Shown here one piece after another: positions 24,365-62,119 of a DNA stretch of 64,000 nucleotides. The position numbers and the translations under genes were made by a program. Positions within the stretch are counted from its first letter, which is position 1, and each line of letters opens with the position of its first letter. Source of the stretch: a virus. Where the stretch lies: the IMG/VR virus record IMGVR_UViG_3300022752_000054, positions 1-64,000 of that record. One strand, written 5' to 3'. The notes under the pieces are model-generated. The model was given only the letters and a program-made list of their open reading frames with translations, was not told the DNA's origin and ran no database searches.

Positions 24365-24973
24365 ATGATCAGGTTCCTTGGAAAGCTGCCTCGCAAGTGT
24401 GTGGTTGCCTTCAGCGGTGGTGTTGATTCCGTGGCAGTGACTGATTTTCTTCTCAACGGAAAGCGTGATGTTCACCTGGCATTTTTTCACCATGGAACTG
24501 TGACATCCGATGAGGCAGAGAAGTTTGCAAAGGAATTCGCCAGGGAGAGGAACCTCAACTTATCCATCGGGCGGATCAGCAATGAAAAGTCACCGGGTGA
24601 ATCCATGGAGGAATACTGGCGGAACGAGAGGTATCGATTCCTTTCCATGTACAATTTCCCGGTGATTACTGCACATCACCTTGGAGATGCCGTGGAGACA
24701 TGGATCTTCAATTCTCTGCACGGAAATCCCCGAATCTTGCCTTATCAGAGGAACAACATCATCAGGCCTTTCCTTATCACCCCTAAGTCTGAGTTGATTG
24801 ATTGGGCTAAAAGGAAAGGATTGAAGTGGATGGAGGATGAATCCAACAACGATCTGAAGTACATGAGGAACCTGATCAGGCACAAGATCGTCCCTGAGGC
24901 AATGGTGATTAATCCTGGTCTTGACAAGGTTGTAAAGAAGATGTATATTAAGGAAGAGATGAAAGAGGGGTAA
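24365..24973 (+). CDS. tilS: tRNA(Ile)-lysidine synthetase (202 aa)
   Basis: Ligates lysine to C34 of tRNA-Ile(CAU), switching it from reading AUG to AUA and from Met to Ile charging. Seen: PP-loop AFSGGVDS at residues 15-22, HHGTVTSDEAE, the TilS-typical TAHHLGDAVETWIFNSLHG, RPFLITPKSELIDWA, and WMEDESNNDLKYMRNLIR. The protein is only the N-terminal catalytic domain and lacks the C-terminal tRNA-binding domains of long TilS enzymes. The split tRNA(CAU) gene at 17132 is an obvious substrate. Two small genes and a SpoU methyltransferase follow. Confidence 0.9.
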   Translation: MIRFLGKLPRKCVVAFSGGVDSVAVTDFLLNGKRDVHLAFFHHGTVTSDEAEKFAKEFARERNLNLSIGRISNEKSPGESMEEYWRNERYRFLSMYNFPVITAHHLGDAVETWIFNSLHGNPRILPYQRNNIIRPFLITPKSELIDWAKRKGLKWMEDESNNDLKYMRNLIRHKIVPEAMVINPGLDKVVKKMYIKEEMKEG

Positions 24974-24976
24974 ACT

Positions 24977-25228
24977 ATGGAAATGTTTAGAAAATCCACG
25001 TGGATTGAGTTGCGAGTTCCGCCTCCTGCAGCTGGGATAGTTTTCATCCACGTTGCAAGGCCTGATCGACCATTAATGATAACGGATATCCTAGAGGATG
25101 AGATACAACGCGTAGACGTGGCAGGCGTCACGGCACCTTGGGGGTCCATCGAAGATTGGCGAGATGAGGTTCGCCATAGAAATATAGAGATTGTTTATGA
25201 CCCAAAGCATTACATTCAAAAAAGGTGA
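24977..25228 (+). CDS. hypothetical protein (83 aa)
   Basis: Starts four bases after tilS. Beta-rich first half (WIELRVPPPAAGIVFIHVARP) and a charged second half. No family recognised. Overlaps the next gene by 32 bp, so it is in the same transcript. Confidence 0.5.
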   Translation: MEMFRKSTWIELRVPPPAAGIVFIHVARPDRPLMITDILEDEIQRVDVAGVTAPWGSIEDWRDEVRHRNIEIVYDPKHYIQKR

Positions 25229-25433
25229 TTTGGTTCTCTACGATAAGTTTGGATCTTATCATGAGTCAGTATCCCCCTCTGTCTTCATTGACGATTTTGC
25301 TGTAGGAATTATTCTTGAAATCGTAGAGGAAAAAAGTGGGGGTGTTGACAACGCTTTCGCAGAGATCATGAAGGAAGATGGGTCAAAAGGTTTCTTTTCT
25401 TTATCTTACCTAAATTCGTTCGAACAGCCATAA
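25197..25433 (+). CDS. SH3-like small barrel protein outside the array (78 aa)
   Basis: FKKGDLVLYDKFG, VGIILEIVEEKSGG, AEIMKEDGSKGFF, YLNSFEQ: clear relative of the 2.5-12 kb array, alone here between tilS and the methyltransferase gene. ATG at 25197 preferred to the TTG at 25191. Confidence 0.6.
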   Translation: MTQSITFKKGDLVLYDKFGSYHESVSPSVFIDDFAVGIILEIVEEKSGGVDNAFAEIMKEDGSKGFFSLSYLNSFEQP

Positions 25434-25445
25434 AAAGGAAATTTG

Positions 25446-26021
25446 ATGAGTGACTTGAAAAATCCGTCGTGGCCGCAGGGACAGTTCGATCATAGGAATG
25501 TCATCGATTATTACAAATATTGGGAGCATGATGCGATCCTAGCCGACCAAGACAAGAACAGGTGCCGTTTGAAAATCGTGGCTGAGAATTTTGGAAATGA
25601 CTTCAACATCTCAACCGTCGTGAGATCTTCCAACGCTTTCTTGTGTAATGAAGTGATCATCGTTGGTCGAAGACGCTGGGATCGCCGCGGAGCTTGCGGA
25701 ACGCATAATTACGAGCACGTAAACTATGAAGAGAATATTGGGAGCGTCATTTCCAAGCATCCGAATCATAGAGTGGTCGTGCTAGATAATGTTCCAGGAG
25801 CCTCTTCGATTTATGACTATAAATGGCATGAAGATACATTGCTTGTTTTAGGACAAGAATCAATTGGGGTATCTCCTGAATCGATGGTGGCGGCCCACGA
25901 TGTGATCTACATCCCGCAGTGGGGTTCTGTTAGATCGTTGAACGTTGGATCAGCCGCCACAGTAGCCATGGCGTTTTATCGAGGGCAGTGGGGTAAAGAT
26001 CAGCCGACACCGTCCCAATAA
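25446..26021 (+). CDS. SpoU/TrmH-family RNA 2'-O-methyltransferase (191 aa)
   Basis: SPOUT-class methyltransferase acting on tRNA or rRNA ribose. Motif 1 AENFGNDFNISTVVRSSNAF, motif 2 LVLGQESIGVSPE, motif 3 IPQWGSVRSLNVGSAATVAMAFY are all intact, including the NVGSA knot loop. The N-terminal ~40 residues precede the catalytic fold. RBS AAAGGAAA; ATG at 25446. With tilS and the tRNA genes it suggests active tRNA modification during infection. Substrate position not determinable here. Converges with the structural gene at 26000. Confidence 0.85.
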   Translation: MSDLKNPSWPQGQFDHRNVIDYYKYWEHDAILADQDKNRCRLKIVAENFGNDFNISTVVRSSNAFLCNEVIIVGRRRWDRRGACGTHNYEHVNYEENIGSVISKHPNHRVVVLDNVPGASSIYDYKWHEDTLLVLGQESIGVSPESMVAAHDVIYIPQWGSVRSLNVGSAATVAMAFYRGQWGKDQPTPSQ

Positions 26022-27768: not shown

Positions 27769-28371
27769 ATGAACATCATTAAAGACATCTCAAAGCGTTT
27801 AGAAAAAGTCGAGCTGCGTTACAGCCCGGTGATCATCAGGGTGAATAAATTTGACGAGGAGGCCGCTGAAAAGTTCTCCAACCAAATGTCGGCCGCTCAG
27901 TCCACGGGTCAAACGATGATCCCCGTGGTCATAGACTCTTATGGGGGTCAAGTCTACTCTCTCATGTCCATGATCGCAAACATTAAGGCTTCAAACATTC
28001 CGGTGGCAACAATCGTCGAAGGTAAGGCTATGTCATGCGGAGCTTTGTTATTCAGTTATGGTGCTTCTGGATATCGCTTCATGGATAAACATGCAACCAT
28101 CATGATCCATGACGTCTCCAGTGGTGCGCGCGGCAAGATCGAAGAGATCAAGGCCGACGCAAAAGAAGGTGACAGGTTGAATCAGCTTGTGTATAGAGAA
28201 ATGGCCGCAAATTGTGGTAAAGAACCTGAATTCTTTTTGAAGCAAATTCATGATAGGTCACACGCCGACTGGTATTTGGACGCAGAAGAAGCCCAATCGA
28301 TCGGTCTGGCAAACCATTTACGAGTTCCTAGCCTCAAGGTGAAGGTCGACGTGTCTTATAGCTTTGAGTGA
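27769..28371 (+). CDS. clpP: ClpP-like serine protease (200 aa)
   Basis: Self-compartmentalising protease subunit. Catalytic Ser89 in EGKAMSCGALL, His114 in ATIMIHDVSSG, and the third residue Asp in WYLDAEEAQSIGLA; the oxyanion-region IDSYGGQV precedes. Length is normal for ClpP (about 200). The N-terminal axial-loop region differs from cellular ClpP. Phage ClpP-like proteases can act in head maturation or with a host ClpX; without capsid genes nearby, either is possible. It follows the tmRNA-like sequence. Confidence 0.85.
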   Translation: MNIIKDISKRLEKVELRYSPVIIRVNKFDEEAAEKFSNQMSAAQSTGQTMIPVVIDSYGGQVYSLMSMIANIKASNIPVATIVEGKAMSCGALLFSYGASGYRFMDKHATIMIHDVSSGARGKIEEIKADAKEGDRLNQLVYREMAANCGKEPEFFLKQIHDRSHADWYLDAEEAQSIGLANHLRVPSLKVKVDVSYSFE

Positions 28372-28402
28372 TCAAACAATTATAATTCGTTGGCGATTTT
28401 AA

Positions 28403-28456
28403 GCCATAATTATTCTTGTGGGACATCTACAGATGTCTCTGAGGAGTAATTATGGC
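28403..28456 (+). promoter_or_regulatory. leader hairpin covering RBS and start of the fibre gene
   Basis: GCCATAATTATTC at 28403-28415 can pair with GAGTAATTATGGC at 28444-28456 (12 pairs and one G-U). That would bury the ATG at 28452, while a nested hairpin GACATC-TACA-GATGTC (28422-28437) forms the inner arm. This could repress translation until opened. The second fibre gene keeps only the inner hairpin. Confidence 0.45.
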
Positions 28457-28504
28457 TATAAATTTTAATGGTGTGAGAATAAAACCCGCATCTGGTGGTG
28501 CAGG
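28426..28504 (+). repeat. 79-bp direct repeat, copy 1 (leader plus fibre N-terminus)
   Basis: Identical to 29687-29765. Spans the hairpin end, RBS and the first codons of both fibre genes, so the two genes share translation signals and virion anchor. Confidence 0.85.
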
Positions 28505-29579
28505 TGGCGGAGTTTCTTGGCCTGGTGATGGAACTAAGTTGCTATCCGGTGACGGTTCACAGGTTATTGTTGGTGATGGTTTGACTTTGTCTGCCGGAAC
28601 ATTATCATCTAGTGGATCAGTTGGACCTCAAGGTCCTCAAGGTCCTCAAGGTCCTCAAGGTCCTCAAGGTCCTCAAGGTGCTACAGGTGCTACAGGTGCT
28701 ACAGGTGCTACAGGTGCTACAGGTGCTACAGGTGCTACAGGTGCTACAGGTGCTACAGGTGCTACAGGGTCTTCGGGATCTACATATATAGCAACGGTAG
28801 GAGACTCAACAGTTTCTTTGCTTCTTCACATGAATGGAGCAAACAACAGCACAACATTTACCGACAATTCTTATACACCAAAAGCTGCCACGGTTAGTGG
28901 CAATGCAAAGATTAGTACAACCGATAGCAAATTTGGCGGGTCTAGCGGATATTTTGATGGAAATGGCGACTATTTCTATTATTCGTATAATAACGATTTC
29001 AACTTAAGTACAGGAGATTTTACGATAGAAGGTTGGGTAAACCCCAGCTCTCTTGCATCTCAAATGTGTCCAATTGCAAAACATCAAACTACCATTTCTC
29101 AAGATTGGCAATTTTATATTATAAACTCTACGACAATTGGCTTTGCTGCATCTGGTCTTGTGACGAGAACGGTTCCAACGATAACAACGGGAACCTGGTA
29201 TCACTTTGCCGTAGTAAAACTCTCAGGTAACACATCCATCTATTGGAATGGTATTAGACAAGGAGCAACTTTTGCCAATGTACCAACTAATTCCGTAGCT
29301 GCAGTTGTAATTGGCGCTGACAGATTGAATGCTATTCAATATCCATTTCACGGATATATCGATGAAATTAGAGTCAGCAAAGGTATCGCAAGATATTCTA
29401 CTGATTTCACACCTTCTGCAACAGCTTTCGCAAATCCAGATGGCTCGGCTGAACTGCCTGCCGCCCCTGCAGTAGGAAATGTCGTTTACTCCGACACGGG
29501 AATCTACGTTTGCTCTAGTGCTTCTCCTGTTGTTTGGAAAAAATTTGACGGAGCACCAACACAAACTATAACAATCTAG
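28452..29579 (+). CDS. collagen-like tail fibre with LamG tip (375 aa)
   Basis: Modules in order: conserved N-terminal anchor ([20 protein letters not shown], continuing to about residue 50), a collagen-like stalk of six GPQ and ten GAT triplets (about 57-107), then a LamG/concanavalin domain ([57 protein letters not shown]). Glycine triplets form trimeric stalks in phage fibres. Likely receptor binding. The perfect 9-bp DNA repeats of the stalk invite length change by slippage. GAGGAG RBS. Confidence 0.8.
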
Positions 29580-29600
29580 TCGTTAAACACAACAAAAACT

Positions 29601-29640
29601 ATTCAGGACCTCGGCCTTTCAACCTTGGTCCTGAATTTTA
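29601..29640 (+). terminator. rho-independent terminator after fibre gene 1
   Basis: ATTCAGGACC ... GGTCCTGAAT with TTTTA. An almost identical terminator follows fibre gene 2 at 30734, so the duplicated unit includes its terminator. Confidence 0.8.
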
Positions 29641-29686
29641 TTAATGACTAATTCATTAATTATGTCATATTTATTCTTAAGAGATG

Positions 29687-29765
29687 TCTACAGATGTCTC
29701 TGAGGAGTAATTATGGCTATAAATTTTAATGGTGTGAGAATAAAACCCGCATCTGGTGGTGCAGG
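29687..29765 (+). repeat. 79-bp direct repeat, copy 2
   Basis: Second copy of the leader and anchor sequence found at 28426-28504; divergence begins just after codon 20 of the fibre gene. Confidence 0.85.
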
Positions 29766-30714
29766 GGGCGGTGTTTCCTGGCCCGGGGATGGAACAAAGC
29801 TTCTAGCTGGTGACGGTTCGCAGGTCGTTGTTGGCGATGGTCTGGATTTGTCTGCGGGTACGCTAACTGCAGGTGGTTGGCAGACAGTTTTAGATATAGA
29901 CTTTACAACTCAAGCTGCGCAGACTTTCAGCACTGACGGCACGTACACGATCGCCGGAAAAACTTTTACTAAAGGAAATTCTTCAGCTGATTCAACCGCG
30001 GCCGCGTTGGTTCCTTCTGAAGGATTGAAGTTCATGCCTAATGCTGGTTCTGACTACAACGGATCTACACGTGGCATGCCATACCTGTGGACTCCGTTGA
30101 ACGGAATACTGCCAGCAGATCTTGCGTACAGCTGGAGTAGCAGGATTAGATTGTATGTTTCGTTGGGATCTAATAATATCAGCGCAAATTTCGACAATTT
30201 CGTTCTTGGACTTGACACAAATTCAACGACTTGGGGGATCATCATAAAATTGGGTTATGGCACTGGTGGTACAAATCCAACTACTGCTATGTTTTGGGAC
30301 ATAAATGGTACGGGTGGTAGCGTTGCTGGTAACGGAACTACATTCTTGAATGGTTCAAACTCTTACTCACTGGGTGCAGGTGGGATAAGAACTTTTTGTT
30401 TTGAATTTGGGTCGGTGAACAATTCGGGACCTGCCTTTACAAATGTAATGGAGTATAGAAACGGAAGCATGAATCCTGGTGATGCATTTCCTTCCATAAA
30501 AACATTCTCTCCTGGTCTATCTTGCAGTCTTAGAAATTATGCACAATTGCAAGATTGGTCTAGCACAGCACAAGGGTTTAATTCACATGGAAGCCCTTAC
30601 ATGAGTGGTGGACCTTGGGAATCTTTAGGAATTTTACTTGGCATGCAGAGAGCAGGAGGAACAGCCGGCTTGCATGGTAGATATCAAAGAGTCAGACTAG
30701 ACGTGCTAGTATAA
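29713..30714 (+). CDS. fibre-like protein with the same anchor (333 aa)
   Basis: Residues 1-50 match the preceding fibre ([20 protein letters not shown] against [20 protein letters not shown]), after which the two are unrelated. The body (WQTVLDIDFTTQAAQTFSTD; YSWSSRIRLYVSLG; VRLDVLV at the end) is a beta-sandwich-like single domain without a stalk. So one anchor carries two different tips: either alternative receptor-binding proteins or two fibres in one virion. Confidence 0.7.
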   Translation: MAINFNGVRIKPASGGAGGGVSWPGDGTKLLAGDGSQVVVGDGLDLSAGTLTAGGWQTVLDIDFTTQAAQTFSTDGTYTIAGKTFTKGNSSADSTAAALVPSEGLKFMPNAGSDYNGSTRGMPYLWTPLNGILPADLAYSWSSRIRLYVSLGSNNISANFDNFVLGLDTNSTTWGIIIKLGYGTGGTNPTTAMFWDINGTGGSVAGNGTTFLNGSNSYSLGAGGIRTFCFEFGSVNNSGPAFTNVMEYRNGSMNPGDAFPSIKTFSPGLSCSLRNYAQLQDWSSTAQGFNSHGSPYMSGGPWESLGILLGMQRAGGTAGLHGRYQRVRLDVLV

Positions 30715-30733: not shown

Positions 30734-30774
30734 ATTCAGGACCTCGGCCTTTCGACCTTGGTCCTGAATTTTTA
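30734..30774 (+). terminator. rho-independent terminator after fibre gene 2
   Basis: ATTCAGGACC ... GGTCCTGAAT then TTTTTATTT; sister of the terminator at 29601. Confidence 0.8.
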
Positions 30775-30830: not shown

Positions 30831-32765
30831 TCAAGCGTCACGCCACAAATTATTTGAAGCATACACAAGAATCTCTTCTGCGCTTTCGGCGGTGTATCCA
30901 TGATCCTTGATGAGTGTTGCCACCATCTCATTGTACTTTTCCTTCTGCTCCTCGTCACGAGTTTTGCTCTTGGTCACGACTCTAGCAAGTGATTTGACCG
31001 ATGAGATGAGGAATGATTCAATGGCCTCACGGAGTGGTTCATAAGAACGGAATCCGACCTTTTCGCCTCGACGCATTTTGGCGAACATGTAGGCGGCAAC
31101 GTCAGATCGGAATCCGTCGCGTGCGGAGCCGCTGATACCAATTTGCTCCTCAATTGAAGCCATGAATTGCTCGTCTGGCTTTCTCTCTTCTTTTGTGACG
31201 CGATCCTTGAGCTTAACGCGTGTGGTATAAGCCTCTGCATTGTCAAGGTAAGTGTCGAAGAGGGATTGAGCCTGTTCCTCGTAGGCGGAAATGAATGCCT
31301 TTGCGATCTCGTTCTCGAGGATCTTAAGGTATTCTTCACGAACTGTCTTCTGGAGAATTTCAAGGCACTTTGTCTTGAATGTCTCATCGTTGATCTGCTC
31401 TTTCACCATCTTGGTTAATGACTCAATGACAGAAACCGGCGTGATCATTCCTTTGTCGGATGCTGTGAGGGCATTATCCAACGCTTTGGTGATGAAGCGC
31501 GTGGAGATTCCATCCATACCCTCGTGTTTTGCTTCCTCACGAAGGTCTTTAATGTCGACCTTACGAACGCGACCTTTCTCTAAGACGTCCTCGCCGTTAT
31601 AGATCTTCATTTTCGTCAACAAATCGCATTTAGCCGAGGGTTTCAGGCGGCTCATGACTGAGAACATTGAAGCAACCTTGAGGGTGTGCGGTGCGATATG
31701 CGCTTTGAAGTCCGACTTACCGAGCATCTTTTCGTAGATCTTCTGTTCCTGATCAACTTCAAGGCAGTAAGGAACTGCGATCTTGACGATGCGGTCCATG
31801 ATAGCCTCATTGGTGTGCTCCGACTGGAATCGGTTCCACTCAGCCTCGTTGCAGTGGGCGAGAATGACGCCGTCGAAGTGAAGCATGTCCGATTTACCAG
31901 GTGATGGAACCCTCTTCTCCTGTGTGGCGGTGATGATGGTGTGGAGGAACTCGATCTCATTCTTGAAGACCTCGACCAGCTCCACGATGCCACGGTTGCC
32001 CACGTTGAATGCACCTGTGAGTGAGAGTGCTCGTGGATCATCCTCTGCGTATTTGTCAAGCTTAGAGATATCCACCGAGCCGATGAGGACAGAAACGTCC
32101 TGACTGTTGGCATCCATTGGAGGAACAGCAGCTACGCCTCTCCGTCCCCTCTGAGAGAACGTGGTCTCCTCGACCTCAAAATCCTCATACTTACCGCCAT
32201 AATCGTTGAGGAGCTTGTGACGTGCAACGGGAGAGATATCTCCATCAATCTTCACGTTGAGTGCCTTCTCAAATTCCGAACGAAGAGAACGTGGGACGAG
32301 TTGTAGGGGCTCACCACGATGAGGATCTCCCTTGAGGTGATAGTACTTCTTGCCTTCGAGCGCACGTTTAATGTGCTCTGTTAATGCTGATTTACCAGCT
32401 CCGACTGGTCCCATTAAGAGTAGAACCTGGCGAGATTCCTCACCCTTGTGTGCTGCTGAAGACAGGAACGACATGATCTTGTCAATGACCGTCTCCATTC
32501 CGAAGAACTCACCCTCAAAGTACTTGTGGACTTTAACGGCGTCGCCGTCAAACACCTTGAACTTGCGTGAGTCTGAGTCAGGCATCACGTAGGAACCGTG
32601 CTCCTCGATGGCCTCATAGAGCCTGCGATGCGCCGATTTTACTATTGATGGTTCCTTTTCGACGAGGTCGACGTAATCCATAAGATTACCAGAGAACTTT
32701 TTTGTTTTGGATGACTCTTCTCGAGCCGTTTGAATTTGTTTGAGTAGTTGCTTCTTGACGCTCAT
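30831..32765 (-). CDS. prkA: PrkA-family serine kinase/AAA protein (644 aa)
   Basis: Full-length relative of YeaG/PrkA. AAA domain with Walker A GPVGAGKS at 119-126, then HLKGDPHRGEPLQLVP, TGAFNVGNRGIVELVEVFKN, and ITATQEKRVPSPGKSDMLHFDGVILAHCNEAEW, all hallmarks of the PrkA N-terminal domain. The C-terminal kinase-like region follows from about 400. In bacteria PrkA acts with YeaH and SpoVR under starvation and nitrogen stress. It is the last gene of the three-gene minus-strand operon, 33 bp after spoVR. Finding the whole set in a phage-like region suggests takeover of this stress circuit. Confidence 0.9.
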   Translation of the reverse strand: MSVKKQLLKQIQTAREESSKTKKFSGNLMDYVDLVEKEPSIVKSAHRRLYEAIEEHGSYVMPDSDSRKFKVFDGDAVKVHKYFEGEFFGMETVIDKIMSFLSSAAHKGEESRQVLLLMGPVGAGKSALTEHIKRALEGKKYYHLKGDPHRGEPLQLVPRSLRSEFEKALNVKIDGDISPVARHKLLNDYGGKYEDFEVEETTFSQRGRRGVAAVPPMDANSQDVSVLIGSVDISKLDKYAEDDPRALSLTGAFNVGNRGIVELVEVFKNEIEFLHTIITATQEKRVPSPGKSDMLHFDGVILAHCNEAEWNRFQSEHTNEAIMDRIVKIAVPYCLEVDQEQKIYEKMLGKSDFKAHIAPHTLKVASMFSVMSRLKPSAKCDLLTKMKIYNGEDVLEKGRVRKVDIKDLREEAKHEGMDGISTRFITKALDNALTASDKGMITPVSVIESLTKMVKEQINDETFKTKCLEILQKTVREEYLKILENEIAKAFISAYEEQAQSLFDTYLDNAEAYTTRVKLKDRVTKEERKPDEQFMASIEEQIGISGSARDGFRSDVAAYMFAKMRRGEKVGFRSYEPLREAIESFLISSVKSLARVVTKSKTRDEEQKEKYNEMVATLIKDHGYTAESAEEILVYASNNLWRDA

Positions 32766-32798
32766 GTTGTTATGTATACCTCTCCCTGCTCCAGTGTA

Positions 32799-34109
32799 TC
32801 AAATCTCCCAAGTTTCATCTTCAATAATTGTGAAGAATTTCACGTCGCTACCCCACAGAGTCTTGACGTGTTCCACGACTTTATTGGCATGGCTTAATTC
32901 TAGATCTCGACCATCATGTTCATGTTTGATGATCAATGTACCATCTCTCTTTACGTCATCCACAAAGACAGCTGGAATGGATCCACCTGCCACTTGGTTG
33001 ACGAGATCTTTCTTCACCTCTTCCCACCCTAAGTCATCTGAAACTTCATCGACTGTAATTCCCTCGTGGCGCTTCGATGAATATGTGAAGAGATTGAGAT
33101 CCACGCAGTCCTCTTCCGTGAGATATTGGCGGAGGAAAGAAGCGTCATGGCATGTCTCTCTTGCGATGAAGCACTCTTCGATGCCATGCCTCTCCTTAAT
33201 CTTCTGGAATAGATGGAAGCCTAAGTGATAAGGATTGATCGCTCCCACGTGTGGTCTGACCACTTGGTTGTGCATTTTGATAAAAGGTAGATGCATACCA
33301 TCAGGTAGGTCCAACTCATGACACATGGTGTAGTGCCAGTAGGAAGCCCATCCTTCGTTCATGACCTTCGTTTGTATCTGTGGCCAGAAGTACTGGCCTT
33401 CGTCACGGCAAACGTCAATGATGTCGCGTTTCCAATCAGGCATCTTACCGTGTTCCGAGATGAAACCTAATAGATCATAATCAGGTTCTAGCGGAATTCT
33501 ATTGACATCGAAATTCTTATATTCATTTTTCTTGTCGTTGTTCATCAGTTCGACGTATTCGGCTCTGAGCTCTGCATGAGTCCTGCGGGTTTGTCCGTAC
33601 TTCGTCGTCTGGAACTGTATTGCGTGACAGGAGTCTATCACCTCTTCCACGTTTTCCACACCGATGTTGGGATTCTCAATGTAAGATTGGATTCTCTTCT
33701 TCGCCGCTCTGAACCGAGGCACAACTGTCTCAGGTCGTGTGGCCTTGAACATCCTGTTGTTCTTAAAGAAATCGCTATGTCCGACGCAATGCGCCATGAT
33801 GAGGATCTGCAGGTATAGTGGATTCTCACGCATGAGGTAAGCGATCGATGGATCACTGTTGATGATTAATTCATACGGCAAACCTTCCATACCTAGGTTA
33901 TAACGGTGGAATGTTTGTTCGAACGTTTTACCATAGGACCAATGATCGAAGTGTGTAGGAAGACCATGATAGGCCATGGCACCGATCATTGAATAATAAT
34001 CGAGAGTTTCATAGGCAATCTCAAACCAATCGAGATTGTGACCCTTGGCCAACTTGCAGATCTTATCATCCCATTCTGCCAATGTATCTAATGTGTAATC
34101 CATTTTCAT
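32799..34109 (-). CDS. spoVR: SpoVR/YcgB family protein (436 aa)
   Basis: Recognised from NLDWFEIAYETLDYYSMIGAMA, GLPTHFDHWSYGKTFEQT, GMEGLPYELIINSDPSIAYLM, MAHCVGHSDFFKNN, NEGWASYWHYTM and YHLGFHLFQKI, the conserved blocks of the family. It is somewhat shorter than the E. coli YcgB type (about 510 residues). Biochemical activity is unknown; His- and Glu-rich motifs suggest a metal-binding enzyme-like fold. ATGA overlap with yeaH shows translational coupling in the order yeaH-spoVR-prkA. Confidence 0.92.
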   Translation of the reverse strand: MKMDYTLDTLAEWDDKICKLAKGHNLDWFEIAYETLDYYSMIGAMAYHGLPTHFDHWSYGKTFEQTFHRYNLGMEGLPYELIINSDPSIAYLMRENPLYLQILIMAHCVGHSDFFKNNRMFKATRPETVVPRFRAAKKRIQSYIENPNIGVENVEEVIDSCHAIQFQTTKYGQTRRTHAELRAEYVELMNNDKKNEYKNFDVNRIPLEPDYDLLGFISEHGKMPDWKRDIIDVCRDEGQYFWPQIQTKVMNEGWASYWHYTMCHELDLPDGMHLPFIKMHNQVVRPHVGAINPYHLGFHLFQKIKERHGIEECFIARETCHDASFLRQYLTEEDCVDLNLFTYSSKRHEGITVDEVSDDLGWEEVKKDLVNQVAGGSIPAVFVDDVKRDGTLIIKHEHDGRDLELSHANKVVEHVKTLWGSDVKFFTIIEDETWEI

Positions 34110-35278
34110 CCTTTGGTCAAAGACACGCCTGTACCACCCATCAATGTTCTAAAAGCAGGCCATACGTCTGCCTTCTCTACCACCCTAACGGTCTTTAATT
34201 TTGGTCCGACGAGAGGTTGCATCGTTGTATGGAGCTTGTCTTGATTGTAATACCTTTCAGGTTCAATCTCGCAGTAACCGTACAGCTGACAGATGTCTTT
34301 TAGTTCACGGGCGAGACCTATGAACTTCTCATTGTCCGACGAGAAGTTATCACCGTCGGACGCCTGAAACGTGTAGATGTTCCATGATGACGGATGAAAT
34401 CGTTTACTTATCTCTTGTAACGTCAACTCCAAAGCGCTGGATGCGATCGTTCCTCCGCTGGTGGCTTCGGTAAAGAATTCTTTCTCTTCGACCACCCTCG
34501 CCTCGGTGTCGTGTGTGATGAAAACGACCTCAACCGTTTCGTACTTGGATCTAATGAACTGGTAGAGCAAGAAGAAGAAGGATCTTGCTAGGAACTTCTT
34601 GTCTTGCGTCATTGACCCGCTGACGTCCATCAAGAAAAATATGACTGCGTTGGTGCAAGGTTTCGGCGTGACCTTGAAGTGTCTGTACCTCAAATCGTCT
34701 TCGTGGAAAGAGAAGGTCTCTCCTTCTTCGGCCTTCTCAGGATCAAATCCTGCCGCCTTCATTCTCTTGATTCGAGCGATTGCAGACTTCTTCTTGTCTA
34801 GGCGTGGAAGAATACCATCGGTGCGATATCCATTCCTTTTCAGCTTGTCAGCTGATATGTTTGATAGTTGACGTCTCTGCAACTCGGGAAGTTGTAGTTC
34901 AGCGAAGAGATACTCTGCGAGTTCTTCTAACGTGATCTCAACATCGTAATACTCTTCTCCTTTTTTGTCGCTGGCTTTTTGAGGTTTTCCTTGACCTTGT
35001 TGCTGTCCCTCACCTATCTTTTGGCCACGTTTAACGTCTTTACCTGGAGCTGATCCAACTTGCTTGTTGCCGTTATTGTCGCCATAGACGAACTTGTATT
35101 CCTTAATTCCCCTGACAGGAACCCTGAATTTTTTCTTACCGTCTTGGCCTATGATGCTTTCATCTGCAACGATGTGATGGATTCCATCTCGAATTGCCTT
35201 CTCAATTTTCTGTTTGTGACGACGTCGATCGGAGGCAGATCGATCAGCGATTGTCTTATGTTCCTTAAAGATCGACAT
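34106..35278 (-). CDS. yeaH: YeaH/YhbH (DUF444) vWA-like protein (390 aa)
   Basis: N-terminal RSASDRRRHKQKIEKAIRDG and SIIGQDGKKKFRVPVRGIKEY are typical of YeaH. A Gly/Gln/Lys linker follows, then a vWA-type fold with the MIDAS-like FFLMDVSGSMTQDKK near residue 217 and the late ASDGDNF. Partner of PrkA and SpoVR in many proteobacteria. First gene of the operon; GTATAAT lies 10-16 bases before the ATG on the minus strand. Confidence 0.92.
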   Translation of the reverse strand: MSIFKEHKTIADRSASDRRRHKQKIEKAIRDGIHHIVADESIIGQDGKKKFRVPVRGIKEYKFVYGDNNGNKQVGSAPGKDVKRGQKIGEGQQQGQGKPQKASDKKGEEYYDVEITLEELAEYLFAELQLPELQRRQLSNISADKLKRNGYRTDGILPRLDKKKSAIARIKRMKAAGFDPEKAEEGETFSFHEDDLRYRHFKVTPKPCTNAVIFFLMDVSGSMTQDKKFLARSFFFLLYQFIRSKYETVEVVFITHDTEARVVEEKEFFTEATSGGTIASSALELTLQEISKRFHPSSWNIYTFQASDGDNFSSDNEKFIGLARELKDICQLYGYCEIEPERYYNQDKLHTTMQPLVGPKLKTVRVVEKADVWPAFRTLMGGTGVSLTKG

Positions 35279-35285
35279 AGTTTTT

Positions 35286-35291
35286 ATTATA
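35286..35291 (-). promoter_or_regulatory. candidate -10 of the yeaH-spoVR-prkA operon
   Basis: On the minus strand GTATAATAAAAACT runs straight into the ATG at 35278. The leader would be very short. Confidence 0.4.
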
Positions 35292-35310
35292 CTTCATTAA
35301 GAGGTTATTT

Positions 35311-35982
35311 TTAACCCAAACGTTCTCTTTCAAATCTTTCGACACCAGCCTTCGAGATTCGTGCCAATAGCGAATTAACGTCTACGGTTTTATCCTTAAG
35401 ACTTTCAACGAAGTTATCGTGATTCAATAATAACTTTTGAAAGATGGAATTTTCATTTCCTTTCGGGAAATACGCATTATCAAGTACGGGGTCTCCTAAC
35501 CACTGTCCTGTTTCTTTATCGCGACTCCAATTTCTGACTTTACAGTCATCAGAGTCATCTTCAGGAGTGGCCTTTTTCTCATCATCTACGTAGAAATTGT
35601 CAAGAGCTGTTTTTTTACGAGAACCTTGTTTGCTCCACCCTTTTACAGCGTCATCGGTAAGCGAGTTTCTATCAGGTATGAGTGGTCCTCCGACTGCAGC
35701 GAACATTGCAGGATATAAAACGCCTCCGTATCCACGACCACCTGCCATCTTAATTTCCCACGCCCCTGCGCAACGTTGCTTAGGCTTTTGAGCTGCGATG
35801 TATCCAACTACCGCTTGAGAAACGTCGTCTGCGTCTGGTTCGATTTTAGAAGGATAATACAACGTAATTGCCTTCATCCCCCAATCGCTTGCGTCTTCAT
35901 AGAACCCTGCTAATTCTTCCGTAGGAGAACTAACTTCCATTAACACTTGTCTGATGAATCTTCTAAGCTGTGTTTCTGACAT
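35311..35982 (-). CDS. helical-tag protein, DR-motif family copy 1 (223 aa)
   Basis: ATG at 35982 gives MSETQLRRFIRQVLMEV, the shared tag. The body belongs to a four-member family in this window (with 46767, 49381 and 50622): Cys-Ala-GAW-E-I, a Gly-rich turn, YPAMFAAVGGPLIPDRNSLTDDAV, KGWSKQG, then EDDSDDCKVRN and a C-terminal helix. The invariant core is (I/V)-x-DR-x-S-(V/L/M)-x-x-x-A. Unknown function. It follows yeaH in orientation but is upstream of it, probably a separate transcript. Confidence 0.65.
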   Translation of the reverse strand: MSETQLRRFIRQVLMEVSSPTEELAGFYEDASDWGMKAITLYYPSKIEPDADDVSQAVVGYIAAQKPKQRCAGAWEIKMAGGRGYGGVLYPAMFAAVGGPLIPDRNSLTDDAVKGWSKQGSRKKTALDNFYVDDEKKATPEDDSDDCKVRNWSRDKETGQWLGDPVLDNAYFPKGNENSIFQKLLLNHDNFVESLKDKTVDVNSLLARISKAGVERFERERLG

Positions 35983-36057
35983 CCATGTGTAAATATACAA
36001 ACTGTTGTGGTAATCTTTCAAAAGAAAGCATAAAAGCTCGTAAGGAGGGTTGTTCTA

Positions 36058-41701: not shown

Positions 41702-43324
41702 ATGTCTTTTGAACCCCAATCTCTGAAGTCTAATAGTCGCGTCTTGTTTTCTAGCGATGCAAGAAAGAAATTATACGCTGGTCTTAGTATAGCAGCTGAA
41801 GCTGTCAGTTGTACTTTGGGTCCAAATGGAAAAACAGTTTTAATTCAAAATGGGAATGATTCTCCGATTATCACTAAAGATGGTGTGACGGTCAGCAAGT
41901 CTATAAGATTAGATGACCCAGTAGAGATGATGGGAGTAAGACTTTTGAGAGAAGCTGCGTCTCAAACCAACGATACGGCTGGTGATGGAACAACCACCTC
42001 TACTGTTCTTACTCACGCTTTAGTAAAAAATGGGTTAAATTTGCTAGAGGCAGGTTACAACGCAAAAAAGCTTGTAGAAGGAATGGATATTGCGATAAGG
42101 TTAGTAACAGATGCTGTTGTTTCTCAAGCCCATCCGGTTGAAACAGCTGAAGAAATTGCGCAAATTGGTACCATTTCAGCTAATGGTGACAAGAAAATAG
42201 GAGAGCTAATTTCAGCTGCAATGGAAAAAGTTGGAAGAGATGGAATCATTACTGTAGAGGATGCTAAAGGAATGGCAACCACTCTTGACGTGGTTGACGG
42301 AATGCAGTTTGACAGGGGTTATTTAAGCCCTTACTTCGTTACGAATAACGAAAAGATGCATGCTTCTTATAATGATGCATATGTTCTAGTTACAGATAAA
42401 AAAATATCTGCATTAAAGGATCTTATTCCTATTCTTGAAGCAGTGGTAAACTCTAGAAAACCTCTTCTCATCATTGCTGATGATGTTGATGGGGAAGCAT
42501 TACAAGGATTAGTTCTTAACAGGGTAAAATCTCAATTACCAGTTGTCGCCATTAAATCTCCTGGATTTGGAACTTCAAAAGATGAATACATCATTGATAT
42601 TTCAAAGCTGACAGGAGCTAAACTGATTTCTAGCTCTACTGGTTTGTCTCTGGACAAGGTAAAACTAACGGATTTAGGAATTGCAAAGAAGTTTGTGGTC
42701 GATGCAAAGACCACAACCATCGTTGGTCCCTCATCTGCAAGAGAGCAGGTTCAAGAACACGTTTCTGATCTAAAAGAGAGGCTTAGCGACGTAACAATAA
42801 GCTCTCTTGAAATGAACAACCTTCGAACCAGGATCGCTCGTCTTGCTTCTGGAGTTGCTGTCGTCCGAGTCGGCGGCGCGACCGAGATGGAAATGATTGA
42901 ACGTAAATATAGAATAGAAGATGCTCTTCATGCAACACGTGCGGCAACAGAAGAAGGAATAATTCCAGGCGGAGGAACGGCTTTATACACGGCCTCAATA
43001 GCTGCTAGAAAAGCTACAAAAAATGTTTCTTATGAAAGAGATGTTTTGGCTGGAATTGAAATGGTTTTTAAATCTTGTGTAGAACCACTAAGAAGAATTG
43101 CTCATAATAGTGGCAAGTCACCAGATGTCATTGAAGAATGTATGAGTAAGAATGTCAATAGTAACTTCGGATATGATGCTTCTTCAGGAGAGTTTGTCGA
43201 TCTTGTGGCAGCTGGTATTATCGATCCTGTCAAAGTTACTAAAATGGCTCTTAAGAATTCTTCTTCAGTTGCTAGACTATTTTTAACTTTGGACGCTGTC
43301 TTGGTCAATGGAGAAACTGCTTGA
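41702..43324 (+). CDS. groEL: phage GroEL-like chaperonin (540 aa)
   Basis: Full-length group I chaperonin: VSCTLGPNGKTVLIQ (equatorial), DGVTVSKSI, NDTAGDGTTTSTVLTHAL (ATP site), apical GYLSPYFVTNNEKM, and EEGIIPGGGTALY. Compared with cellular GroEL it has an N-terminal extension (MSFEPQSLKSNSRVLF) and lacks the GGM tail, ending at LDAVLVNGETA. No GroES is adjacent, so it may use host GroES or work alone, as reported for some jumbo-phage chaperonins. TTGA overlap links it to an SH3-like gene. ACTATATTACC precedes the ATG. Confidence 0.95.
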   Translation: MSFEPQSLKSNSRVLFSSDARKKLYAGLSIAAEAVSCTLGPNGKTVLIQNGNDSPIITKDGVTVSKSIRLDDPVEMMGVRLLREAASQTNDTAGDGTTTSTVLTHALVKNGLNLLEAGYNAKKLVEGMDIAIRLVTDAVVSQAHPVETAEEIAQIGTISANGDKKIGELISAAMEKVGRDGIITVEDAKGMATTLDVVDGMQFDRGYLSPYFVTNNEKMHASYNDAYVLVTDKKISALKDLIPILEAVVNSRKPLLIIADDVDGEALQGLVLNRVKSQLPVVAIKSPGFGTSKDEYIIDISKLTGAKLISSSTGLSLDKVKLTDLGIAKKFVVDAKTTTIVGPSSAREQVQEHVSDLKERLSDVTISSLEMNNLRTRIARLASGVAVVRVGGATEMEMIERKYRIEDALHATRAATEEGIIPGGGTALYTASIAARKATKNVSYERDVLAGIEMVFKSCVEPLRRIAHNSGKSPDVIEECMSKNVNSNFGYDASSGEFVDLVAAGIIDPVKVTKMALKNSSSVARLFLTLDAVLVNGETA

Positions 43325-55554: not shown

Positions 55555-55631
55555 AGATACATCCTATCACGGGTGGTGTATACTTTGCACCGGTCCCGAA
55601 AAAAAATCTCAAGAGAAAGATAGTTATATTG

Positions 55632-60435: not shown

Positions 60436-60996
60436 CTAGGGGTGGCTCTCGAAATCTGGGTCTTTTAGAGCCCACCGCATGTAAGACTTGATGAACTTTG
60501 ATTTCAGTTCATTCCAACGCATATCGTTGATCTCTATGTTCAATTTCTTGGCGAGCTTGCGACCTCTGTGCCATGCCTCAAATTCTTCTTCGATGACAGC
60601 ACAACGGTGGATGAACTTGCCCTTGACTGCTGGGTCATAAATCGAAGGGTAGCCTAAGGTGAACCTTGGATTGGTCATCCCGTCGCCTGATCCTACGAGG
60701 AGGTGACCACACTCGTGGAGGAGGATGAAGAGTTGGTTCTCGTATGATTGAGTGGAGTTGACGTAAATCTTTTTTTCGTCAGACACGAAGGATCCTGCTT
60801 CACGTCTGTTCGTAAATTCTACTTCTATTTTTCGGGAGGCACACCATGCGACAACGAGGTTTAAACTCGCAGAGGATGTTATATCTACATCCAAACGGGC
60901 CCGAGCCTTGGGCTCGGTGGCAGGATCCTTTGACCTCTGCTTTTCATACCGGGCCCAGGCTCGTTCCTCCCAGAGTCCGCGCTGGAAGGATGGCAT
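60436..60996 (-). CDS. ImmA/IrrE-type or related HExxH metallopeptidase (186 aa)
   Basis: Zinc-peptidase motif LLHECGHLL (HECGH at 94-98) after a strand IYVNS; a downstream Glu/His-rich helix (IEEEFEAWHRGRKLAKKL) can supply the third ligand, as in IrrE/ImmA proteins. Those enzymes cut repressors. Here no adjacent repressor is visible. Arg/Lys-rich N-terminus. Confidence 0.7.
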   Translation of the reverse strand: MPSFQRGLWEERAWARYEKQRSKDPATEPKARARLDVDITSSASLNLVVAWCASRKIEVEFTNRREAGSFVSDEKKIYVNSTQSYENQLFILLHECGHLLVGSGDGMTNPRFTLGYPSIYDPAVKGKFIHRCAVIEEEFEAWHRGRKLAKKLNIEINDMRWNELKSKFIKSYMRWALKDPDFESHP

Positions 60997-61000
60997 GTGT

Positions 61001-62119
61001 TCACTTCTTCTTCTTCGGCGTCGTTACCGACTTCGTCTCTGCCGGGGTGAGGGCCTTGGCAGCCTCTCCCTTGTCGACCCCGAAGACCGAGAGGATGTGG
61101 TTGACACACCACTTGTGGACCGACTTGGCGAGCTCGAGGTTGTTGACCCCGCCGGCCGTGAGCTTCGACCAGGCCGCCACTCGGAGCTCCGCGGGGAGGT
61201 CACCCATGAAGTCTCGGAGGTTGGCACCTTGGTTGTCGTCGAGAACCTTCAGGTTCTTCGTGACGTAGTCGGCCACCTTCTCGATGGATACGTTGAGCTT
61301 CTCCTGACCGAGCTTGGCGATCTTCGACTTGACCTTAGCGTAGCCCTCGATGATCTCCTCACCGGTGACCTGAGCGTCGATGGTCTTGACGTAGCCGTGG
61401 AAGGCAATGGTCGCCTCCGTGCCGACGTAACCGAGGCACATCGGGTAGAAGAGGGCGTCATCCGGGAGGTCCGCGACCCCGTTGGAGACCAGAGCGTGGG
61501 ACAGACGCTCCCAGCTGCGGCGGCTGGGGGAGACGGCCGAGGCCTCGCCACCCTTGGGCGGGTCGAGCCACTTCTCGTTGCCGGCGATGAAGGTGATGAT
61601 GTTCTCGTGGATGGCCCCGGACTCCTTGGCCCAAGTGAGCCAGTCCTGCGTGTCCGGCGTCAGGTCGATGGCCCAGAAGCGATCGAGGAGTGCAGGGTCC
61701 ATCTCGTTGACCGAGTAGGCCGCCGAGGAGTTGATGGCCGCGTAGACTCGGGTCTGCGGGTGGAGCTTCCAGCCGTTGAGCTCACGATCCAGGACGACCT
61801 GGAAGGCGGCCTGCATGACCTCGGGAGTGGCGCGGTTGAGCTCGTCGAGGAACAGGGCCACCGGCTTCTTGCAGGCGTTCTTGTACCACTCCGGCGGGTT
61901 GAACCGCGTGACCTCGCCGTCCGTGGACGGGAGACCGATCATGTCGCCTTCGCTCATCTGTGAGAGGCGGCGGTCGATGACCTCGAGACCGAAGCCCTTG
62001 GCCACCTGGCGGACGACCTGGGACTTACCGATGCCGTGGTTACCACGGAGGAGGACCGAGGTCTCCACGGGGAGCTTGGAGGAGACCTTGAGGAACGTGC
62101 GGACGGACATGGTGGTCAT
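61001..62119 (-). CDS. MoxR-type AAA+ ATPase (372 aa)
   Basis: Chaperone-like ATPase. Walker A GNHGIGKS at 26-33, Walker B VALFLDELNRA near 90, DPALLDRFWAIDL (sensor/arginine finger region). The N-terminal MTTMSVRTFLKVSSKLPVET leads into the core. MoxR proteins work with vWA partners, here most likely the protein at 54247-55554. C-terminal Lys-rich end. Possible starts: ATG 62119 or 62110. Confidence 0.85.
   Translation of the reverse strand: MTTMSVRTFLKVSSKLPVETSVLLRGNHGIGKSQVVRQVAKGFGLEVIDRRLSQMSEGDMIGLPSTDGEVTRFNPPEWYKNACKKPVALFLDELNRATPEVMQAAFQVVLDRELNGWKLHPQTRVYAAINSSAAYSVNEMDPALLDRFWAIDLTPDTQDWLTWAKESGAIHENIITFIAGNEKWLDPPKGGEASAVSPSRRSWERLSHALVSNGVADLPDDALFYPMCLGYVGTEATIAFHGYVKTIDAQVTGEEIIEGYAKVKSKIAKLGQEKLNVSIEKVADYVTKNLKVLDDNQGANLRDFMGDLPAELRVAAWSKLTAGGVNNLELAKSVHKWCVNHILSVFGVDKGEAAKALTPAETKSVTTPKKKK

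Follow-up and report, generated by a model that had tools for sequence, protein, structure and literature searches.

The stretch of DNA analysed here, the window, comprises bases 1–64,000 of the 73,430-bp viral record IMGVR_UViG_3300022752_000054 and harbors a complete set of the genes yeaH/yhbH, spoVR and prkA. The three genes lie on the minus strand, fill exactly positions 30831–35278 and are read in that order. yeaH/yhbH, the first gene of the operon (34106–35278), encodes a 390-aa DUF444 protein of the von Willebrand factor A (VWA)/metal-ion-dependent adhesion site (MIDAS) type; spoVR (32799–34109) encodes a protein of 436 aa and prkA (30831–32765) an AAA+ protein of 644 aa. The first two genes overlap by 4 nt (ATGA), and a gap of 33 nt separates spoVR from prkA. 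The sequence-only reading of this DNA had described a trio of intact and coupled genes, which is in agreement with the exact open reading frames, the ATGA junction and the essentially full-length Pfam matches. The yeaH product matched DUF444 over essentially its whole length (4.4e-111, 372 bits), the spoVR product matched SpoVR over profile positions 1–403 of 407 (4.3e-117, 392 bits) along with SpoVR_C (1.1e-8), and the prkA product matched both AAA_PrkA (2.8e-137, 458 bits, profile positions 2–357 of 358) and the complete PrkA C-terminal domain (1.4e-79, 268 bits, 1–255 of 255). Among the NCBIfam models, the best for the yeaH product was YhbH (TIGR02877) with 396 bits, under the 468-bit cut-off of that model, and the prkA product scored 405, below the PrkA equivalog cut-off of 576. 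The name yeaH is the proteobacterial one; since the best model match is the Gram-positive YhbH, it is corrected here and appears below only as a label for this DUF444 protein, which belongs to the same family. Comparison with the PADLOC defence models gave no known anti-phage match for the trio proteins beyond a weak one between the AAA region of PrkA and DolB (23 bits). Judged from its sequence, the trio is a variant of the known bacterial prkA-yeaH-spoVR operon, packed as one transcription unit; we take the members of that operon to be yeaGH plus ycgB in Escherichia coli and prkA, yhbH and spoVR in Bacillus subtilis.

A scan of IMG/VR identified 153 viral stretches encoding a PrkA relative, and the viral counts given here cover the best 80 of these. 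The trio was complete, on one strand and in the single order yeaH-spoVR-prkA in 78 of the 80 loci; the remaining two (L027 and L046) were cut by contig ends and are left out of the counts of gene order. The overlap of yeaH and spoVR was found in 63 of the 78 complete loci. Comparison of each trio gene with its counterparts in loci L003 and L008 gave ratios of nonsynonymous to synonymous substitution (dN/dS) of 0.008–0.014, with dN of 0.004–0.008 and dS of 0.5–0.77, and all three genes are thus under very strong purifying selection. The GC content of the trio, which ranged from 0.31 to 0.56, tracked that of the flanking DNA (r = 0.90; 74 loci, after exclusion of those no longer than 10 kb). Since dN/dS is about 0.01 and the GC content follows that of the flanks, the trio is best regarded as long resident and used in these phages. 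The suggestion made from the sequence alone that the phage uses these genes is thus upheld by the substitution ratios, by the completeness of the trio in the viral loci surveyed and by its grouping in a single viral clade whose sequences are not identical to those of hosts. That the three genes have been retained together under such extreme purifying selection points to joint action of their products, and to a role outside sporulation. This also casts doubt on the common interpretation of spoVR in viruses as a sporulation gene, since in these phages, which have a T4-type capsid, it belongs to a fixed cassette of three. In one locus (L029:5446-6288), yeaH encodes 280 aa as against 395 aa in L028, which may reflect either a frameshift or a real loss.

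The record encodes virion structural proteins, a ClpP relative of the head-maturation-protease type, tail-fibre-like proteins, endonucleases and GroEL, and carries ten tRNA genes, while searches of the 73-kb record for terminase and gp23 gave no match. A contig of 278,435 bp from another metagenome (IMGVR_UViG_3300044641_009805, here G863) was found to be collinear at its start across the 73-kb record, the trio included, with main blocks of 79–96% DNA identity and a GC step near 50 kb common to both. The terminase of G863 is 82% identical to that of another trio phage. A terminase match was obtained in 10 and a gp23 match in 9 of 15 records, these being the window's own record, which had neither, and 14 of the 20 trio records. 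The large trio contigs, which reach 361 kb, are T4-like jumbo phages with a gp23 capsid protein and terminase. The window most probably represents part of such a phage, with a genome of at least about 280 kb, because the collinear G863 carries a terminase and other trio records carry terminase or gp23; the description of the locus as part of a phage-like genome is in agreement with this. An assembly error fusing host DNA onto a phage contig, which might be suspected from the climb in GC from about 0.38–0.45 to 0.6 beyond 50 kb and from the same trio on three contigs of metagenome-assembled genomes (MAGs), can practically be dismissed, as the independent 278-kb contig is collinear through both the GC step and the trio, dozens of further viral contigs carry the trio, and the MAG copies fall within the phage clade with the phage gene order. 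Chimerism and host contamination were ruled out by the same collinearity.

The three MAG contigs with the phage-type trio (L091, L092 and L093, from GTDB genomes labelled Methylococcaceae, Legionellales and Halobacteriovorax) show 72–73% identity, and are apparently jumbo-phage contigs binned into bacterial MAGs. gp23 was present in two of the three genomes, and in one of these (G023) it lay on a contig other than that of the trio. Among 17 contigs picked by terminase or gp23, PrkA and SpoVR were both found in 4, three of which were already known trio carriers, and neither was found in 13, some of these contigs being fragments. The trio is an accessory component in the wider phage group.

The cellular sampling covered 299 Bacillota, 398 Pseudomonadota and 144 Bdellovibrionota genomes, together with plasmids and a pattern-limited genome scan, and a closer cellular relative may possibly occur in another phylum. 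In 17 of the 299 Bacillota genomes, PrkA scored about 860–1018 bits against the phage profile (one of them in two pieces), the next score being 575 bits. The best PrkA match was 448 bits among the Pseudomonadota and 408 bits among the Bdellovibrionota, phage-type contigs in the MAGs G022 and G023 excepted. At least four of the 17 Bacillota genomes (G024, G059, G110 and G136) also encode a second, lower-scoring PrkA. The phage-like PrkA-YhbH-SpoVR set of these four genomes and of 13 more Bacillota was recorded as loci L100–L116. Phylogenetic analysis of 82 PrkA sequences by a quick method, with support from the Shimodaira-Hasegawa-like approximate likelihood ratio test (SH-aLRT) only, placed 46 jumbo-phage and the three MAG sequences on one branch (SH-aLRT 99), adjoined by 14 Bacillota sequences (SH-aLRT 98). 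The Thermus phages and two huge phages were placed elsewhere in the tree, the long branches of the former being its weak point. The nearest sampled cellular kin of the phage PrkA is thus a second PrkA lineage of Bacillota, with identities of 51–57% for PrkA, 44–49% for YeaH and 41–44% for full-length SpoVR. Of the loci compared, those Bacillota were also the closest for YeaH and SpoVR, and the three genes were therefore probably transferred together. Host-identical sequence was ruled out by the 51–57% identity of the closest cellular PrkA over its full length. The sequence-only reading had proposed a phylogeny against host copies and had named a single contig with host-identical sequence as the finding that would overturn it; the many viral loci, forming one clade with a Bacillota lineage nearest, exclude this. 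The trio is best explained as vertically inherited within a lineage of T4-like jumbo phages.

The gene order differs between the phages and their nearest cellular kin. All 14 loci of the nearest Bacillota clade read prkA-yeaH-spoVR, and among 24 bacterial loci read whole this order was found in 19 and yeaH-spoVR-prkA in 4, all of them canonical Bacillota, while spoVR was not found in one. An order confined to phages was considered and dropped, as four canonical Bacillota loci (L117–L120) had spoVR just before prkA and their upstream DNA also gave yeaH-spoVR-prkA; these operons in the phage order are recorded as L445–L448. The operon has thus been permuted within bacteria too, and the phage order, although permuted with respect to the nearest cellular kin, also occurs in bacteria and so falls within the variation of the operon. 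Similar to the phage trio, the bacterial operon comprises the same three full-length families, tightly packed and with their motifs kept; it differs from it in that prkA mostly comes first and that the phage trio forms a separate clade.

Several other phages have been found to carry members of these families. The Thermus phages phiYS40, TMA, phiLo, MN1 and Lalka are only 30–35% identical in PrkA; the records of phiYS40 and MN1 name SpoVR and a serine (protein) kinase, and their gene orders, yeaH-spoVR-orf-prkA in phiYS40 and yeaH-spoVR-prkA in MN1, are the same as that of the jumbo phages. Four uncultured huge phages of 595–642 kb (LR745206, LR756502, LR756504 and LR756511) also encode all three families, as the window does, with PrkA 28–33% identical, and the two of them in the tree group with Pseudomonadota. 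The 635-kb LR745206 reads prkA-yeaH-spoVR, and a distance of about 240 kb separates spoVR and prkA in LR756502. The Ralstonia jumbo phage RsoM2USA, which was absent from the matches in the phage collection and is likened here by its published description only, is described as encoding SpoVR (ORF28) and PrkA (ORF30) as separate genes, nearest to proteobacterial proteins (PMC8504454). Provided that the long Thermus branches are correctly placed, phages have probably captured the trio at least three times, because the Thermus and huge phages fall elsewhere in the tree and a huge phage has another gene order. The open-licence PubMed Central literature searched gave no description of the full trio as an operon conserved among T4-like jumbo phages. 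The operon itself and isolated phage SpoVR and PrkA proteins are already known; the breadth of the trio in jumbo phages was not encountered in that literature. The operon is widespread in bacteria and its molecular mechanism is unsettled, and the phage genes may offer a minimal set for its biochemistry.

Analysis of the three proteins showed that their key residues are kept. In YeaH, the residues D218, S220, S222, T277 and D308, which we take to form the MIDAS motif, were invariant in 55 aligned phage-type sequences, and the predicted fold is that of a VWA domain, with NorD and the Rea1-MIDAS among the best PDB matches. The Walker A motif GPVG[AS]GKS of PrkA was present in all 10 aligned phage sequences, and the sequence kin of the protein are Lon-like AAA+ proteins, with 9xip as a solved relative (1.3e-90). 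In SpoVR, H107-C-V-G-H111 and N251-E252-G253 were invariant or nearly so in the 55 phage-type sequences. Structural modeling of SpoVR (predicted local distance difference test score, pLDDT, 85) placed H107 and H111 in one predicted helix and E252, in the motif NEGWA, in another. The phage motif HCVGH is replaced elsewhere by HVYGH, HVYAH, HVLGH or HVAGH, and by HAAFGH or HAAYGH in two sequences; across 20 phage and bacterial sequences, both histidines and the glutamate of NEG or HEG were kept in every one. Alignment of the Foldseek candidates with VIA-align gave mostly gluzincin (metallo)peptidases, with a best Z of 12.0, while Foldseek itself gave no match for SpoVR under an E value of 0.001 and a profile search of the PDB likewise gave no confirmation of a gluzincin. 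Comparison with M1 peptidases by hhalign gave non-significant probabilities of 2–6%, and the better run aligned sensibly only over the region of NEGWA and the glutamate helix. The glutamate that follows the first histidine in HExxH was found in none of the 20 sequences, and SpoVR as an active zinc peptidase was rejected owing to the absence of this motif. At one further locus (L013:3255-5816), an in-frame intein of roughly 410–420 aa (LAGLIDADG_3, 3.3e-17; Intein_splicing, 3.6e-10) interrupts SpoVR between the A and the S of its conserved NEGWA-S motif. Inteins favour functionally critical sites.

Pairs of an AAA+ ATPase with a VWA protein have been described as machines for remodelling and metal insertion (PMC13036017). 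The trio resembles NorQ-NorD and RavA-ViaA in combining an AAA+ ATPase with a VWA partner, NorD being among the structures nearest to YeaH; it differs from them in its third partner, SpoVR, and in PrkA, which is not MoxR, whereas NorQ and RavA are MoxR-type ATPases. The reading preferred here, to which we give a probability of roughly 0.45, is that the phage trio constitutes a remodelling machine of the AAA+/VWA kind, in which SpoVR is either a partner or a client and which would help with protein handling during a lengthy infection. PrkA would work as an AAA+ ring that spends ATP to remodel protein clients, YeaH would act through its VWA/MIDAS domain as an adaptor of PrkA in the manner of NorQ-NorD or RavA-ViaA, and SpoVR, with its putative HxxxH...NEGWA metal site, would be a third subunit or a client of PrkA and YeaH. 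The phage may express the three proteins for folding, complex assembly or stress during long infection of slow or starved hosts. A role in protein remodelling seems to fit the trio better than one in kinase signalling; it is the gene anatomy that was computed, and from it we infer complex formation, clients and a role in infection.

Several observations weigh against such a machine. PrkA is not of the MoxR type, its sequence matches in Pfam, NCBIfam and the PDB being to AAA_PrkA, AAA_16 and Lon. The HxxxH motif has one extra residue in 2 of the 20 SpoVR sequences (a proteobacterium and a huge phage), and a uniform metal site is disfavoured owing to this difference in spacing. Other long contigs that encode related terminases or capsid proteins, some of them possibly fragments, lack the trio. 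The chaperonin-like gene that accompanies prkA in other lineages (see below) stands beside the trio in none of the 21 loci of the window's own sublineage, and 50 of 80 chaperonin-like loci lack prkA in the fetched flank (up to 3.5 kb). The literature search found no experiment that shows PrkA, YeaH and SpoVR forming a complex in any organism. The purified PrkA of Bacillus anthracis is described as monomeric (PMC13001217), and with malate present E. coli YeaG was reported to phosphorylate AceA in vitro (PMC8055822).

A live rival, though a rather doubtful one, is that the phage supplies the host's own starvation brake, so that a starved host, its metabolism quieted or reprogrammed, survives the slow jumbo-phage cycle, whatever the biochemistry. 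In E. coli starved of nitrogen, YeaG/YeaH have been called a metabolic brake (PMC10954441), and spoVR was the most abundant sporulation-class auxiliary gene in viromes of marine oxygen-minimum zones, where the authors' reading was one of host persistence (PMC8940887). The phage proteins are full-length family members, which would suit this role. However, the phage PrkA is only 30–57% identical to the sampled cellular forms and so may not plug into host pathways, and a metabolic brake would slow phage production too, which leaves the benefit to the phage not obvious; this bears equally on the suggestion made from the sequence alone that the trio might keep starved hosts productive.

It is unlikely, yet conceivable, that the trio represents a third kind of AAA+/VWA machine, in which PrkA and YeaH load metal into, or switch on, SpoVR as a degenerate metalloprotein of the gluzincin fold, the whole forming a jumbo-phage protein-quality system for the assembly of virions or replication complexes. 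SpoVR would then have kept HxxxH...NEGWA and lost the catalytic glutamate, and the machine would in places be coupled to the chaperonin-like protein without ATP-binding motifs. Less probable still is signalling by phosphorylation, as put forward in the sequence-only reading, with PrkA as a serine/threonine kinase acting on host or phage targets and YeaH and SpoVR as its regulators. The phosphorylation of AceA by YeaG and the completeness of the PrkA C-terminal domain in the phage protein speak for it, but the kinase activity of B. anthracis PrkA was undetectable and its protease activity negligible, and the authors note that the kinase domain has no P-loop (PMC13001217). Pfam, PHROGs and NCBIfam reported no general protein-kinase model for the phage PrkA. 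As the kinase activity of PrkA is disputed, this proposal is weakly founded and found no support in the form stated. That SpoVR should be an effector binding RNA in stressed cells, loaded or cleared by PrkA and YeaH, is quite improbable. B. subtilis SpoVR crosslinks to RNA in vivo during sporulation, but it has no known RNA-recognition domain (PMC12456014), and the invariant HxxxH and NEG motifs of the phage protein resemble a metal site more than an RNA surface.

With respect to neighbouring genes, the window encodes on the plus strand an intact GroEL-type chaperonin of 540 aa (41702–43324; Cpn60_TCP1, 3.6e-67; PHROG groEL, 6.7e-146) with the motif GDGTTT. It lies about 6.4 kb from the trio and is a neighbour outside the operon. 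An intact GroEL was found inside the fetched flank in 7 of the 21 loci of the window's sublineage, as well as in the window itself. GroEL itself as the next gene to prkA was rejected, since tblastn with the window GroEL gave no adjacent match. In the other lineages, 52 loci extend at least 2.5 kb downstream of prkA; 46 of them carry a divergent chaperonin-like gene shortly after prkA, and the six counted as misses lack the gene. The proteins of this family, mostly of 375–490 aa (loci L024–L082, e.g., L031:10215-11573), match GroEL mainly in their middle part, with PHROG groEL at up to 1.3e-21 among six members scanned and GroEL chains at 2.3e-15 for one member. The ATP-binding motif GDGTT is gone in all 80 chaperonin-like loci, and related ATP-site motifs are lost too. 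A single-sequence search with a chaperonin-like protein gave close relatives at one locus only. A 165-aa gene of no assigned function follows the chaperonin-like gene in 29 of the 30 loci with prkA and in 40 of the 50 without it. Because both genes also occur without prkA, the trio looks to have been placed beside an older chaperonin-like/165-aa gene pair in one lineage. An exclusive system of trio and chaperonin was ruled out by these same copies without prkA nearby; the link between the two is at most suggestive, and the chaperonin-like gene is not a dedicated fourth member.

Upstream of the operon, the sequence GTATAAT that had been noted ahead of it was found on the minus strand at 35286–35292, 8–14 nt before the ATG of yeaH, as a possible -10-like promoter element. 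It pairs with a weak -35-like hexamer in the site TTAAAA-17-TATAAT, a match at 10 of 12 positions, and the local count of promoter-like sites was that of chance (8 seen, 7.5 expected). In the 35 nt that precede yeaH, TATAAT was present in 13 of 20 close relatives, as compared to 1.3 expected from shuffled sequences, and in 9 of 56 other relatives, as compared to 3.0 expected; one locus with a shortened yeaH was left out. The spacing to the ATG leaves almost no leader, which favours a phage-type promoter or a leaderless transcript over the standard sigma-70 layout. A promoter-like unit is also repeated in the GC-rich half, consisting of TGCAAAG... followed by GATAGGGTA or GTATACTAA about 5 nt before an ATG (L002:4355-12000, in a record of about 64–72 kb, and window positions 55582 and 62173), with five copies in one family; this suggests a phage-specific promoter with near-leaderless transcripts. 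Directly upstream of yeaH and on the same strand lies orf236 (35311–36021), which has no Pfam or PHROG match, occurs in only L003 and L008 among the 80 viral loci and is outside the conserved trio module. Beyond the 3' end of prkA, a strong hairpin on the minus strand (about 30734–30769; -24.1 kcal/mol, z -6.9, equalled in 0 of 200 shuffles) sits between prkA and the converging gene 29713–30714. It is a probable two-way transcription terminator, which a simple terminator scan left unflagged.

That converging gene and a collagen-like/laminin-G tail-fibre gene beside it (28000–30714 in all) are only patchily shared with the collinear G863, which suggests that the receptor-binding module beside the trio may have been swapped. 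At 24365–26021, a PP-loop ATPase (ATP_bind_3) and a SpoU-type RNA methylase form a possible tRNA-modification set in a phage with ten tRNA genes. At 60436–62119, a second AAA+ ATPase (AAA_5, dynein-related) adjoins a possible IrrE-like metallopeptidase gene (21 bits, under the cut-off), and the two are perhaps another AAA+/metalloprotein pair.

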